Source of the DNA: an uncultured cyanobacterium
GTDB lineage: Bacteria > Cyanobacteriota > Vampirovibrionia > Gastranaerophilales > Gastranaerophilaceae
DNA: 38,896 nt
Reading direction: 5' to 3'
Assembly: GCA_945487905.1 (NCBI GenBank)
Contig: CALYTW010000006.1
Location: 1 to 38,896, forward strand
The position numbers were made by a program, and so were the translations under genes. Positions 21,605 to 26,507 of this stretch are shown here, piece by piece. Position 1 is the first letter of the stretch, and each line of letters begins with the position of its first letter. The notes below the pieces were generated by a model. That model worked only from the letters and a program-made list of their open reading frames with translations. It was not told where the DNA came from and did not search any database.

Positions 21605-22273
21605 ATGACAAAAGAACAAAAAAAGAAAAAAAACGCATCTTCAAGAGAGCAAAAGTTTTTTAATAAGTGGAGAAGAATCTTTCAATTTATAATAACGCAT
21701 TGGTGTTATATGTTAAGATTGAAGCTTGTATACAGATTAGAGGTATACGGTAAAGAAAATATACCGAAAAATAATCGTTACATACTTGCGCCGAATCATC
21801 TTTCGACGCTCGATCCGCCTATAATTGCCGGTGTATTTCCGAGACCGGTTGCGTTTATGGCTAAAAAAGAGTTGTTTGAAAATCCGTTTTTACGTTGGTG
21901 GTTAAATTGGCTTGGTGCATTTGCAGTCGACAGAGAAAACTTAAGTGTTTCAACAATAAGAACGGTTTTAACAATAAATAAAACAGAGTGGGTATTTGGC
22001 ATATTCCCTCAGGGTACAAGACAAAAACCCGGAACAATATCCGGAATTACAAAGGGATTTGCTTCTCTTGCAAAAACTACAAAATGCGGAATTTTACCGA
22101 TTGGAATTGTGGGTTCGCAAGAGTCTAGGTTTATACCTTTTAGCGGAAAAATAGTTATAAAAATCGGAGAAATAATACCTTATTCGGATAATGTGGATGA
22201 AATGTTTGAAAAGTGGATAACGTCTATTCAGAAACTGACCGGATTTAAGTATGAATCGTTAGTATCAGTATAG
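21605..22273 (+). CDS. plsC: 1-acyl-sn-glycerol-3-phosphate acyltransferase (PlsC family), first copy
   Basis: A 222-residue PlsC-family acyltransferase, which adds the second acyl chain to lysophosphatidic acid to form phosphatidic acid at the inner membrane. The catalytic HX4D motif is NHLSTLDPP (H65 to D70) and the acceptor-binding motif is GIFPQGTR at about residue 134. A basic N-terminus (MTKEQKKKKNASSREQ) precedes an amphipathic or membrane-associated helix. It is followed 8 nt later by a paralogue, suggesting gene duplication and possibly different acyl or acceptor specificity. Confidence 0.9.
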   Translation: MTKEQKKKKNASSREQKFFNKWRRIFQFIITHWCYMLRLKLVYRLEVYGKENIPKNNRYILAPNHLSTLDPPIIAGVFPRPVAFMAKKELFENPFLRWWLNWLGAFAVDRENLSVSTIRTVLTINKTEWVFGIFPQGTRQKPGTISGITKGFASLAKTTKCGILPIGIVGSQESRFIPFSGKIVIKIGEIIPYSDNVDEMFEKWITSIQKLTGFKYESLVSV

Positions 22274-22281
22274 GGGTATAA

Positions 22282-22992
22282 ATGGCTGAGTGGTTTTGGC
22301 AAAGAAATTATAATAAAAGAACGGAAAAAGATTACGGATTAATAAGATCAATTTATTACAAGTTGTTCGTATATTTTGTGGTGTGGCCTGTTTCAAAGCT
22401 GTTTTATTGTTTAAAAGTAGAAGGCAGAGAGAATGTGCCGAAAGGCAGAAATAAAGAAGGCAGAGCAAATCTGATAATTGCGGGCAACCATGTTTCGTAT
22501 ATAGACCCTCCGATGATTACTTACGCTGTTCAGCGCAGAGTTGTATATATGGGGAAAAAGGAATTGTTTACAAGTCCGAATTGGCTTTTGAGAGCTATGT
22601 GTATTTCATTGGGCGGTTTTGCAGTAAACAGGGAAAAACCAGAACTTGCTACATTTAAAACCGTTAAGGCAATTTTTAACACACCATGGCTTTTGGGAAT
22701 TTTTCCGCAGGGCGGAATAAGACACGAACCTGTGCTTGAAAATATACACAAAGGGTTTACTTTATTTGCCAAGAAATTTGAAGCGGATATTCTGCCTGTG
22801 GCTGTATGCGGATTTGACGGATATGCAAAACGACTTTTTCAAAAACATATGACAATAAAAATCGGTAAACCGATTTCTTACAAATTGAGTGATGAAGAAA
22901 TTGTAAGGGAATGGGCAAGACAAATTTGTGAAATGACAGGTTTCGAGAACAAAGTTGAAGAAACATTAAAAGAAACTGTAAATGTTTCTTAA
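22282..22992 (+). CDS. PlsC-family acyltransferase, second copy
   Basis: A 236-residue paralogue of the preceding gene. HX4D is NHVSYIDPP (H70 to D75), and GIFPQGGIRHEP takes the place of the usual PEGTR, with an insertion relative to the first copy. A hydrophobic N-terminal helix (YYKLFVYFVVWPVSKLFYCL) may anchor it to the membrane. Overall similarity, including the GGFAVNREKPELATFKTV region that parallels GAFAVDRENLSVSTIRTV in the first copy, points to tandem duplication. AGGGG precedes the start. It could acylate a different lyso-lipid. Confidence 0.88.
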   Translation: MAEWFWQRNYNKRTEKDYGLIRSIYYKLFVYFVVWPVSKLFYCLKVEGRENVPKGRNKEGRANLIIAGNHVSYIDPPMITYAVQRRVVYMGKKELFTSPNWLLRAMCISLGGFAVNREKPELATFKTVKAIFNTPWLLGIFPQGGIRHEPVLENIHKGFTLFAKKFEADILPVAVCGFDGYAKRLFQKHMTIKIGKPISYKLSDEEIVREWARQICEMTGFENKVEETLKETVNVS

Positions 22993-23067: not shown

Positions 23068-24291
23068 ATGAACATTTTACCATTAAACAGTTTGAAATTA
23101 TTTAGCCGAAGCTCTGTAAACAACAATAAAGGAGCGGAATATAACAGTACAAATACCGGTTTAAAAATGTCGAAACCGCTATCTGCTGATACAGTTTCAT
23201 TTAAAGCAAGAATGGTGGAATTAATAGAAGCAGCGGCTGATAAAACTAATAAAGAACTTAGGGGTGTATCAACGAAATATATGGAAGTTCTGGAAGTTAT
23301 AGCCGGCTTATTAAAAGATTTCGGGGTATCATTTGACAGATCATATTGTGAACCGTATGCAATCAAAACAGCAAGCTCTGTTGTTTCAAAAATTATACGC
23401 TCAGGCTCATTTCATGTACCTGATCGTATAAGGGCAACTGTATACTCCAAAAATATTTATGACCTTTCAATTTTAATTGAAAAAATTCTTATGGAATTAG
23501 ACAAGCGTAATTATGTACTTGCGGAAAACCCAATGCACTTAAAAGAAGCTGTTTTACGTGGTTACAGACCGACTTCCGAAGATTACGAAAGGGGATATGT
23601 TCTTATGCCGGATTTGGATATCCGATTGGATATGCGTAATGAAGATATAAAACCTTACATTTTACCGGAAGAATTAAAATATTCTATGGGAGAAAAACAA
23701 CCTTCCGGATACGAAGATATCCAATTACGTTTGGTAAAAGTTTCTAGAGACGAAAACGGAAAGATAATAAAGGTAAACCAGAACCGACAGTATGAATTAC
23801 TTATTCTTGTCGGGAAAAATTATTCTAATGCAAAAAAAGATGAATCTGCACATATTTATAATTATACGAGACAGTTTAAGGAATTGCATATATTTCAAAA
23901 AGATAAATCAGACAAGGAAGTAGCAAAAGTTAAAGATCTTGCGGATAAAATAAAAGATATTTTCAGCACGGAAATATCACAAAAAGTGTATGGCAATGCA
24001 AAGAGTCGGGATAGATTTGGCACATCGGAGCTAATTCCTATTAACTTAGGTAAAGAAAATGAAGATGCCCTGACGGCGTGCTATGATGCATTGGAAGAAT
24101 CAATCAGAAATTATTATGAAAATTTGATAGAGTTAAGAGCAAAAAATAAAAAAAAGCTAAAACAAATTGTTAAAGACTACCAAGAGGATATGACAAGACT
24201 GAAAAACATAAGAATTGGTTTAACAAATGCTGTGGACTTTTACAAAAATTATTCTTCGGAAGTGCAAAGCAAAAAGCCTAAGAAATCTTAA
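23068..24291 (+). CDS. divergent RelA/SpoT-like synthetase-domain protein with N-terminal tag
   Basis: This 407-residue protein would normally be called hypothetical. Aligned by eye to the Rel encoded next door, it shares spaced residues of the (p)ppGpp synthetase core. K100-x3-S104-x3-K108-x2-R111 matches Rel K244/S248/K252/R255 at identical spacing. FHVPD (D119) matches FHDLYD (D265). GYEDIQL (Y215) matches MYQSLH (Y309). E243 and H262 lie 19 apart, exactly like E325 and H344, with a shared alanine at +12. The conserved arginine before K100 and the QIRT motif are missing, and no hydrolase, TGS or ACT domain is present. Residues 1-47 form a tail with SADTVSFKA (39-47), which I recall in Gastranaerophilales proteins. 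The coding call is firm; the fold is inferred. Confidence 0.65.
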   Translation: MNILPLNSLKLFSRSSVNNNKGAEYNSTNTGLKMSKPLSADTVSFKARMVELIEAAADKTNKELRGVSTKYMEVLEVIAGLLKDFGVSFDRSYCEPYAIKTASSVVSKIIRSGSFHVPDRIRATVYSKNIYDLSILIEKILMELDKRNYVLAENPMHLKEAVLRGYRPTSEDYERGYVLMPDLDIRLDMRNEDIKPYILPEELKYSMGEKQPSGYEDIQLRLVKVSRDENGKIIKVNQNRQYELLILVGKNYSNAKKDESAHIYNYTRQFKELHIFQKDKSDKEVAKVKDLADKIKDIFSTEISQKVYGNAKSRDRFGTSELIPINLGKENEDALTACYDALEESIRNYYENLIELRAKNKKKLKQIVKDYQEDMTRLKNIRIGLTNAVDFYKNYSSEVQSKKPKKS

Positions 24292-26507
24292 TTATTTTTT
24301 TTCAGAGGTTTTTTCTGAACCTTGTTGCTTTTCTTTGTAAAATTCTGTGAAGAACTGTTCGTATGTGACGTTTGAATTCTCTTTACGCTGAAAACATCCG
24401 GCATTGCTTGGATAGCAGTCATTACACGACGCAGAGTATCAATGTTATCAAGTTCTATGCCGAGTTCAATAATACCAACCCTGCCTTTTGATTTTACATT
24501 TGCAGAAACGATGTTTGTATTGTTATCCGAAACGACACCGATAATATCTTTTAACAAGCCCATTTTTTCGGCTGTTTCGACACGGATAGTTGTTGTGTAA
24601 GTCTTGTTTATGTTATTTCCTGACCAGTGAATATCCAAAAGTCTTTCGGGCGGAATATCGTCTAGAGTTTTGCAATCCAAACGATGAACGCTTACACCTT
24701 TTGAGCGAGTTACAACACCGACAATCGGTTCTCCCGGAATTGGAGAACAGCATCGTGCAAATGAATACAAAAGGCCTTCCAAACCGATAATATCTTTTTC
24801 GGAAGATTTTTTAGAATGATGCTGGAATATTCTTTCCTCGTTCTGTTCCTGTTTAGGTTTTGAAAGCCTGTTAATAATTTTATTTAAAGTTGTTTCTCCG
24901 TAGCCCAGTGCTGCAAACAAATCCTCCGAGCTGACGTAATTCATCTGTCTAGCAACTTTTTCAAATTCGCCCGACTTCATATAATCATCAAAAACTGTTT
25001 TTGTTAATTCGTGTTCAAGATTTGCACGTCCGATTTCAATATGGTCTTCTCGTTTATTCTTTTTATACCACTGTTTAATTTTTGATGTTGCCTGTTTTGT
25101 AATAACAAAATTAAGCCAATCAAGTCTTGGTGCTGCAACTTTCGAGGTCATAATTTCGACGATGTCGCCGTTTTTAAGGTGTGTATCAAGCTGGGCAATA
25201 CGACCGTTAATCAGCGCTCCGACAGTTTTGTGACCGACATCGGAATGGATACGATATGCAAAGTCAACCGGAGTAGCTCCTTGAGGCAGGTCTATTACAT
25301 CTCCTCCGGGAGTAAAGGCAAAAACTTGGTCTGAAAATATATCGAGTTTAACCGAATCGACATAATCTACGGCATCTTGTGTGTCTTTGTTGTATTCAAC
25401 GAGTTTTCTCATCCACGAAAATTTTATATCACTTGCAGAGTCTGCCTTTTTGGAACCTTTTTCCTTATATCTCCAATGAGCAGCGATACCATACTCAGCG
25501 ATTTCGTGCATTTGCCATGTTCTTATTTGGACTTCAAGCGGTTTTTGGCGAGGGCCGATTACGGAAGTATGCAGAGATTGGTACATGTTGCCCTTTGGCA
25601 TTGCAATATAGTCTTTAAACCTTCCCGGGATGGGTTTAAAACGGGAGTGAATGAGCCCCAAAACTTCGTAGCATTCTTTTTCGGTATTTACGATTACACG
25701 AACGGCGGTAATGTCGTACAAATCGTGGAACTGAACATTAAGTCGTTCCATTTTTTTATAAATACTGTAGTAATGCTTAGCCCTTCCTGTTATTTTAGCA
25801 TTAATTCCGCTTGCTGTAACTTCTTTTGAAATAGTTGAAATCAGTTCATTTACAGCCAATTCACGTTCGGCTTTTTTTTGTGAAACAAGCTGAGCGATTT
25901 CGTAATATTTATCTGGATGAAGATATTTAAGGGACAAATCTTCAAGCTCTGCTTTAATTTTACCGACACCTAATCTGTTAGCCAGAGGGGCAAATATATC
26001 AATTGTTTCCTGTGCAATTTTTTGTTGTTTAATTGCGGACATATAGTTCAGGGTTCGCATATTATGAAGCCTGTCGGCAAGTTTTAAAAGAATAATCCTG
26101 ACATCTGAAGCCATTGCAATAAACATTCGCCTAAAATTTTCTGCCTGACGTTCTTCTGTTGATTTAAACTGCAATTTTCCCAGTTTAGTGACTCCTTGAA
26201 CGAGATTGAGAACGTCATCGCCGAATTTTTCCTTAATTTCATCGGGTTTAGTATTTGTATCTTCGAGGATATCGTGCAAGAATCCTGCAATAATGGTATG
26301 TTTATCGGCTCTTAAACCTATGAGTATTTTAACAACTTCCATCGGGTGAATAATATAGGGTTCTTCAGAGACTCTGAATTGTCCTTCGTGCATTGATTTT
26401 GCGAATTCAAAAGCCTGCTCAAGCTCGGCAATATCGTTTTTTTGATAATGCTCATCCTCTAACATTTTTCTTATGTCATCAAAATTTATATTATAATTTT
26501 CATCCAT
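24288..26507 (-). CDS. rel: bifunctional (p)ppGpp synthetase/hydrolase Rel
   Basis: This 739-residue long RSH enzyme makes and degrades (p)ppGpp. The hydrolase HD domain (about residues 30-180) is intact: H54, H78-D79 with the HDxxED motif (HDILED), and D145. The synthetase has RAKHYYSIYKKM (242-253), D265, RFKDYIAMPKGNMYQSLHT (the RxKD type of bifunctional enzymes), E325 in EVQIRT and H344. A TGS domain (FTPGGDVIDLPQGATPVDFA) and a C-terminal ACT domain follow. The ATG has no Shine-Dalgarno, and a good promoter lies only bases upstream. The 3' end overlaps the convergent gene by 4 bp. Confidence 0.96.
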   Translation of the reverse strand: MDENYNINFDDIRKMLEDEHYQKNDIAELEQAFEFAKSMHEGQFRVSEEPYIIHPMEVVKILIGLRADKHTIIAGFLHDILEDTNTKPDEIKEKFGDDVLNLVQGVTKLGKLQFKSTEERQAENFRRMFIAMASDVRIILLKLADRLHNMRTLNYMSAIKQQKIAQETIDIFAPLANRLGVGKIKAELEDLSLKYLHPDKYYEIAQLVSQKKAERELAVNELISTISKEVTASGINAKITGRAKHYYSIYKKMERLNVQFHDLYDITAVRVIVNTEKECYEVLGLIHSRFKPIPGRFKDYIAMPKGNMYQSLHTSVIGPRQKPLEVQIRTWQMHEIAEYGIAAHWRYKEKGSKKADSASDIKFSWMRKLVEYNKDTQDAVDYVDSVKLDIFSDQVFAFTPGGDVIDLPQGATPVDFAYRIHSDVGHKTVGALINGRIAQLDTHLKNGDIVEIMTSKVAAPRLDWLNFVITKQATSKIKQWYKKNKREDHIEIGRANLEHELTKTVFDDYMKSGEFEKVARQMNYVSSEDLFAALGYGETTLNKIINRLSKPKQEQNEERIFQHHSKKSSEKDIIGLEGLLYSFARCCSPIPGEPIVGVVTRSKGVSVHRLDCKTLDDIPPERLLDIHWSGNNINKTYTTTIRVETAEKMGLLKDIIGVVSDNNTNIVSANVKSKGRVGIIELGIELDNIDTLRRVMTAIQAMPDVFSVKRIQTSHTNSSSQNFTKKSNKVQKKPLKKNN

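Follow-up and report, generated by a model that had tools for sequence, protein, structure and literature searches.

Crystal work on the toxSAS FaRel2 has assigned roles to residues of its active site: the donor adenine is bound by R64, R95 and Q147, the triphosphate by R64, K66, S70, K74 and R77, and Mg by D90, while Y128 serves the acceptor (PMC11782079). Exported alarmone synthetases form another established group, and the text describing them mentions neither Cyanobacteria nor Melainabacteria (PMC12691689). Our literature search for RSH proteins or alarmones in Melainabacteria or Gastranaerophilales found no papers.

Here we describe a gene from a contig of an uncultured gastranaerophilacean cyanobacterium (GenBank assembly GCA_945487905.1, contig CALYTW010000006.1), of which 38,896 nucleotides were analysed (hereafter the window). 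The gene, ORF 23068-24291, follows two genes for PlsC-like acyltransferases and is convergent with a gene for a bifunctional Rel (Table 1). Its start lies 75 nt after the end of the second plsC gene. At the other end, a TTAA at 24288-24291 is common to its stop codon and that of rel, so that no space remains for a terminator between the convergent transcripts. The same overlap distance between the stop of a gene of this type and that of rel was seen in many genomes of the genus. Conservation was examined in a set of 98 non-redundant relatives, nearly all from Candidatus Gastranaerophilales, which split cleanly, with a support of 100, into an H-type (n = 36) and a Q-type clade (n = 62, including the protein of ORF 23068-24291).

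Table 1. Coordinates of the gene, of the parts of its product and of the neighbouring genes in the window
Feature	Position	Strand	Remark
Q-type RSH-synthetase-fold gene	23068..24291	+	407 aa, stop included
N-terminal tag, residues 1-46 (M-N-I-L ... GLKMxxPLxADTVSFK)	23068..23205	+	predicted disordered, pLDDT < 50 for 1-45
RSH synthetase-fold core, residues 47-320	23206..24027	+	core model, structure matches
K100-x3-S104-x3-K108-x2-R111, putative triphosphate-binding motif	23365..23400	+	canonical RSH Arg98 replaced by Ala; roles by PMC11782079
D119, predicted Mg-binding catalytic Asp	23422..23424	+	conservation
D182-x-D184-x-R186, within the long D119-Y215 insert	23611..23625	+	alignment
G214-Y215-E-D-I-Q219-L-R221, predicted acceptor-site motif	23707..23730	+	canonical GYxSxH replaced by GYEDIQxR
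E243, predicted catalytic Glu	23794..23796	+	canonical Gln two residues further is Leu245
C-terminal helical appendage, residues 321-407	24028..24288	+	full-length model
PlsC-like acyltransferase 1 (PF01553)	21605..22273	+	upstream of PlsC 2
PlsC-like acyltransferase 2 (PF01553)	22282..22992	+	directly upstream of ORF 23068-24291
Bifunctional Rel (HD, synthetase, TGS, ACT)	24288..26507	-	convergent with ORF 23068-24291

Sequence searches and predicted fold

The protein of ORF 23068-24291 matches Pfam and NCBIfam at chance level only, and PDB sequences were matched neither by the protein itself (phmmer) nor by a 54-row Q-type profile. PF04607 is absent above its cut-off from this protein and from all 13 Q-type members scanned. 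The hydrolase (HD), TGS and ACT domains, already read as missing in the first-pass annotation, gave no Pfam match either; all are present in the adjacent Rel, the only PF04607 protein of its genome. On the H side, several proteins match PF04607 or the YjbM family, and a mixed family profile detected the Bacillus subtilis YwaC protein (E = 2.5e-10). PF04607 is also matched by 15 of the 31 proteins encoded in the slot beside rel. An hhalign comparison of the Q and H profiles produced an alignment confined to the N-terminal tag. As the two profiles align only there and the Q profile matches no RSH sequence, RSH membership of the Q clade rests on the predicted fold, the residue pattern, the shared tag and the shared genomic place. 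The family is an undescribed and fast-evolving one of gut Gastranaerophilales. An origin by recent duplication of rel is not supported: BLASTP detected no similarity between the protein and the window Rel, and the mixed profile is far closer to small alarmone synthetases (SAS) than to Rel.

The full-length model has a pLDDT of 82.6, with residues 1-45 disordered. Submitted to Foldseek, this 407-residue model returned meaningless top rows (Cse1, DOCK and helical bundles), because the C-terminal bundle probably dominates the comparison; folding the core alone (residues 47-320, 54-row alignment; pLDDT 93.9, pTM 0.90) resolved the problem. Against the PDB, Foldseek ranks 1 to 19 of the core model are all small alarmone synthetases, with probabilities up to 1.00 and E-values from 1.3e-3; these E-values are modest and the global TM-scores are low (0.26-0.41 by query), perhaps due to the long insert. 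With VIA-align, the best 24 matches of the core model are all RSH proteins (Z 12.2-8.3) and the next match scores 6.9. The Z-scores are 12.2 for RelQ, 12.0 for the exported SAS 8vx3, 11.9 for RelP, 10.9 for Rel, 10.1 for CapRel and 9.6 for Tas1, whereas weaker matches (Z 5.5-5.9) correspond to pol-beta-type enzymes and the nucleotidyltransferase toxin MenT3/TglT. The secondary structure of the full-length model is in keeping with this: D119 stands directly before strand 121-127, Y215 directly before 217-227, and E243 within 233-247. We conclude that the product of ORF 23068-24291 is very probably an RSH-fold protein. The first-pass annotation had called it a RelA/SpoT-like synthetase, proposing a Foldseek comparison as a check and a model devoid of the nucleotidyltransferase fold as a refutation; what the predicted structure contains is the RSH fold.

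Catalytic residues and the two clades

The residues that had been picked by eye are present as described and, with the exception of H262, largely conserved across the family. None of the 98 relatives departs from K100, K108, Y215 or E243; position 119 is Asp in all 62 Q-type proteins, and all H-type relatives have an equivalent Asp at or near it. S104 occurs in 87 of the 98 relatives and R111 in 61 of the 62 Q-type ones. All five of K100, K108, D119, Y215 and E243 fall within the 17 invariant columns of the 274-residue core alignment, for which the chance is about 5e-7 under random placement, a figure that ignores the unequal conservation of residue types. The Arg before the first Lys (here A98) and the QIRT motif are indeed missing, and the D-to-Y insert is longer than in Rel, with a spacing of 96 residues against 44 in the window Rel. 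This insert contains the D182-x-D184-x-R186 motif, invariant in a 13-row alignment; in 54 rows D182 and R186 remain invariant and D184 exceeds 90%. One proposal had to be abandoned. H262 had been paired with E243 at the same 19-residue spacing as E325/H344 of Rel, residues whose numbering is correct. Position 262 varies freely (Lys in 37/98, then Tyr, Leu and Arg), so that this spacing is a coincidence, and we reject H262 as a catalytic histidine.

The two clades differ in a small number of positions. H-type proteins present the motifs R-x-K-x3-S-x3-K, Y-x3-H and, mostly, E-x-Q. Arg is found at position 98 in 36/36 H-type and 0/62 Q-type proteins, in perfect association with His or Gln at position 219. 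At position 245, 30/36 H-type proteins have Gln and 62/62 Q-type proteins Ile or Leu. Gln219 of the Q type is always part of GYEDIQxR (GYEDVQxR in one protein), and R122, D182, R186 and R221 are specific to this clade. When FaRel2 is used as a map, with residues matched by the order of the motifs rather than by superposition, these differences suggest that the Q clade has kept the transfer machinery and lost the adenine clamp.

In three genomes of genus g35 (G107:C5, G128:C1 and G212:C35), a TAG occurs within the matched stretch of the Q-type gene, and in three other genomes (G142, G143 and G146) the Q-type gene is split; these interrupted genes may reflect decay or, in g35, a shared nonsense codon. 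In distant relatives (L239-L244), which match part of the protein at 24-34% identity, a leader of the form MIKLSQKVL...PLERSPxKDTF replaces DTVSF.

Tag, genomic place and probable turnover

The N-terminal tag (consensus M-[NKR]-I ... D-T-V-S-F, residues 1-46) is retained when the body of the protein changes type, and its F45 is identical in 98/98 relatives. The first-pass annotation had seen in residues 1-47 a targeting or export tag shared by many proteins of the lineage. The tag is real, and 'many' is too strong: in a census by pattern searches and fetched loci, the strict DTVSF pattern has two in-frame N-terminal cases in the genome of origin, the protein of ORF 23068-24291 and a phosphoglucomutase, and none was found among about 500 unrelated flanking proteins. 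Searches with a tag profile recovered other carriers in the genus, belonging to kinase-like, HNH-like and ~490-aa families. The tag is polar and disordered, by inspection there is no Sec-type hydrophobic signal, and the domain scan found no known signal or secretion domain in the protein. A role of the tag in sorting or export is a guess.

Several of the other carriers are worth recording. The phosphoglucomutase/phosphomannomutase has a DSVSF-type N-terminal leader (L126 of the genome of origin, C65, tag ~5839; L175:1995-3680). The ~490-aa family with a DTVSF leader (L171-L174) is undescribed, and its member L173 has a weak C-terminal match to HNH_4, below cut-off (E 5.5e-4). L177:2001-3194 encodes a tagged 397-aa protein with a weak protein-kinase match, also below cut-off (PF00069, 26 bits).

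A search of 97 relatives gave 12 full-length homologues from the same genus and ten proteins matching the first ~65 residues only. A profile scan of a species-level genome collection identified 67 loci, nearly all from Candidatus Gastranaerophilales/Melainabacteria or unnamed gut bacteria. Of the 146 genomes that were sampled from the order, 64 carry the Q type at clear scores, nearly always in one copy; all these matches fall in 11 genera of one family. Within the genus, the plsC-plsC-gene linkage is kept in 48 of the 50 members examined. A tagged RSH-like gene occupies the slot beside rel in 31 genomes, with a gap to the rel stop almost always between -3 and 33 nt, and all 19 members examined that carry the gene away from rel have plsC-plsC upstream. 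The idea that adjacency to rel is functionally essential is weakened by these 19 members, which keep plsC-plsC instead, and by the other genera, which use a third place: of the 60 loci outside the genus, 42 have an RlmD/TrmA-like methyltransferase gene convergent with the family gene, and at 32 the opposite flank carries a PFOR gene (both genes were named by inspection of their sequences rather than by a domain search). The neighbours at the loci examined (plsC, rel, PFOR and methyltransferase genes) include no adjacent, fused or conserved small partner that could be an antitoxin. No relative was encoded by the viral contigs searched, and the top BFVD matches, large phage proteins of which one is annotated RelA/SpoT, have no link to the family; a phage origin was thus set aside. 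At another locus, L109:115-3702 (G025, contig 4), lies a gene for a 1195-aa protein that is glycine-rich in its middle and has a RelA/SpoT domain at the C-terminus. This protein resembles polymorphic toxins that end in an alarmone-synthetase domain, and its layout is unrelated to that of the tagged family.

Across the 31 genomes, the median identity of the protein encoded in the slot is 21.7%, against 87.0% for Rel and 71.2% for PlsC. In close pairs with unsaturated synonymous changes, its dN/dS is 0.06-0.15, compared with at most 0.03 for rel. The gene is faster-evolving than rel, yet under purifying selection, and these ratios reject gene-wide positive selection. Genomes bearing the H and Q types interleave on the rel tree, with six changes, three of them forced by supported branches, and none of the bootstrap trees has only one change. 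Given this interleaving, the two types have probably replaced each other at the slot beside rel more than once; ancient coexistence followed by loss is the alternative.

Possible function and comparison with described synthetases

We consider it rather probable that the protein is an active pyrophosphokinase of the RSH fold, SAS-like and synthetase-only, whose donor and/or acceptor pocket has been rebuilt and which carries a helical extension at its C-terminus as well as a disordered N-terminal tag. That it is catalytically active at all appears likely. K100, S104, K108 and R111 would bind a nucleoside triphosphate, D119 (with E243) would bind Mg, and the beta,gamma-pyrophosphate would pass to the 3'-OH of an acceptor that stacks on Y215. 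The donor-base pocket of the Q clade (the Arg that precedes the first Lys, and the Gln of ExQ) and its YxxxH motif would have been rebuilt, the latter to GYEDIQxR. Such a rebuilt pocket would make the donor and/or the acceptor probably other than the canonical ATP plus GDP/GTP, although the odds that the true substrates differ from these seem to us about even; the loss of Arg98 and Gln245 could amount to a total loss of ATP use. If the product carries a 3'-pyrophosphate, the bifunctional Rel encoded in this genome could remove it by hydrolysis and so be its natural eraser. Any link of the Q-type protein to Rel or to lipid synthesis would be putative.

Of the options listed in the first-pass annotation, the one with the best support is a nucleotide pyrophosphokinase of a new type, since the adenine-binding residues appear to be gone and those predicted for phosphate, Mg and acceptor kept. 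The same loss of the canonical Arg, Gln and His in the Q clade is what would be seen in a dead RSH-fold sensor or scaffold binding a nucleotide. Pseudoenzymes usually lose their metal ligands, and the retention of the catalytic Asp and Glu contrasts with this. All 62 Q-type proteins, whose identity with the protein of ORF 23068-24291 falls to 32-35%, retain these two residues together with both lysines and the tyrosine of the acceptor site; conservation of this kind in a family of 15-20% overall identity makes a dead sensor, an option of the first-pass annotation, improbable. We regard as very improbable a nucleotidyltransferase-fold enzyme of other chemistry (e.g., transfer of NMP to tRNA or to a protein) whose RSH-like residues arose by convergence: the donor pocket residues are unlike those of RSH proteins and pol-beta-type and MenT3/TglT folds are among the weaker matches, but the Z-scores fall clearly from most RSH matches (at least 8.3) to these folds, K-x3-S-x3-K and Y...E come in the RSH order, and the sibling H clade, which shares the tag and the locus, belongs to RSH on sequence grounds.

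A growth-inhibiting effector, either a toxSAS or an exported synthetase directed by the tag to export or delivery, and spared a dedicated antitoxin by export or by the Rel hydrolase, would account for the fast divergence of the slot protein beside well-conserved Rel and PlsC neighbours, for the scattering of the two types on the rel tree, for the occurrence of the tag on unrelated proteins and for structural matches that include 8vx3, CapRel and Tas1, exported synthetases being an established group. This explanation seems unlikely to us, as the gene is present in one copy per genome at fixed chromosomal places, lacks an antitoxin-like neighbour at the loci examined and a relative on the viral contigs, and is under purifying selection throughout, while the tag, by inspection not of the hydrophobic Sec type, offers only a putative link to secretion. 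The active pyrophosphokinase remains our preferred reading. In a bolder and rather doubtful extension of it, the Q clade might be a new class of RSH-fold enzymes that take pyrophosphate from a donor other than an adenine nucleotide, or pass it to a new acceptor, thereby producing a novel signalling nucleotide or an RNA modification, with DTVSF as a lineage-specific sorting signal; if so, this signal would be common to phosphoglucomutase, kinase-like and HNH-like proteins. The family would add to the alarmone-synthetase fold a branch invisible to sequence search, in an uncultured gut lineage. The split between Arg/His and non-Arg/Gln proteins with the same genomic place and tag is a natural experiment on the choice of donor and acceptor by RSH enzymes, and two small proteins make the question of a non-ATP pyrophosphate donor for this fold directly testable.

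Compared with the window Rel, the protein has the same catalytic order (R242/K244/S248/K252/D265/Y309/E325 in Rel), but BLASTP shows no similarity between the two, and SAS are a far better fit to the mixed family profile. The toxSAS share its fold (Z 10.1 for CapRel, 6.7 for FaRel2 and 9.6 for Tas1) and FaRel2 has, by motif order, the same triphosphate, Mg and acceptor residues; however, the residues R64, R95 and Q147, with which FaRel2 binds the donor adenine, have no equivalents in the Q clade, and no antitoxin domain or gene was found with the family. SaEAS (8vx3; PMC12691689) also combines an RSH synthetase fold (Z 12.0) with an N-terminal element outside the catalytic domain, which is a Sec signal peptide in SaEAS and a polar, disordered tag here. 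From RelQ/YjbM and RelP/YwaC the Q clade is separated by the lack of detectable sequence similarity and by the replacement of the Arg before the first Lys, the Gln of ExQ and the His of YxxxH, and the protein of ORF 23068-24291 further by its 96-residue D-to-Y spacing, long helical C-terminus and tag. Like these two enzymes, it has a synthetase-fold domain and no HD, TGS or ACT domain; K-x3-S-x3-K, Asp, GY and Glu follow one another as they do there, and it has a predicted fold that matches theirs over the whole synthetase domain (Z 12.2-11.7).
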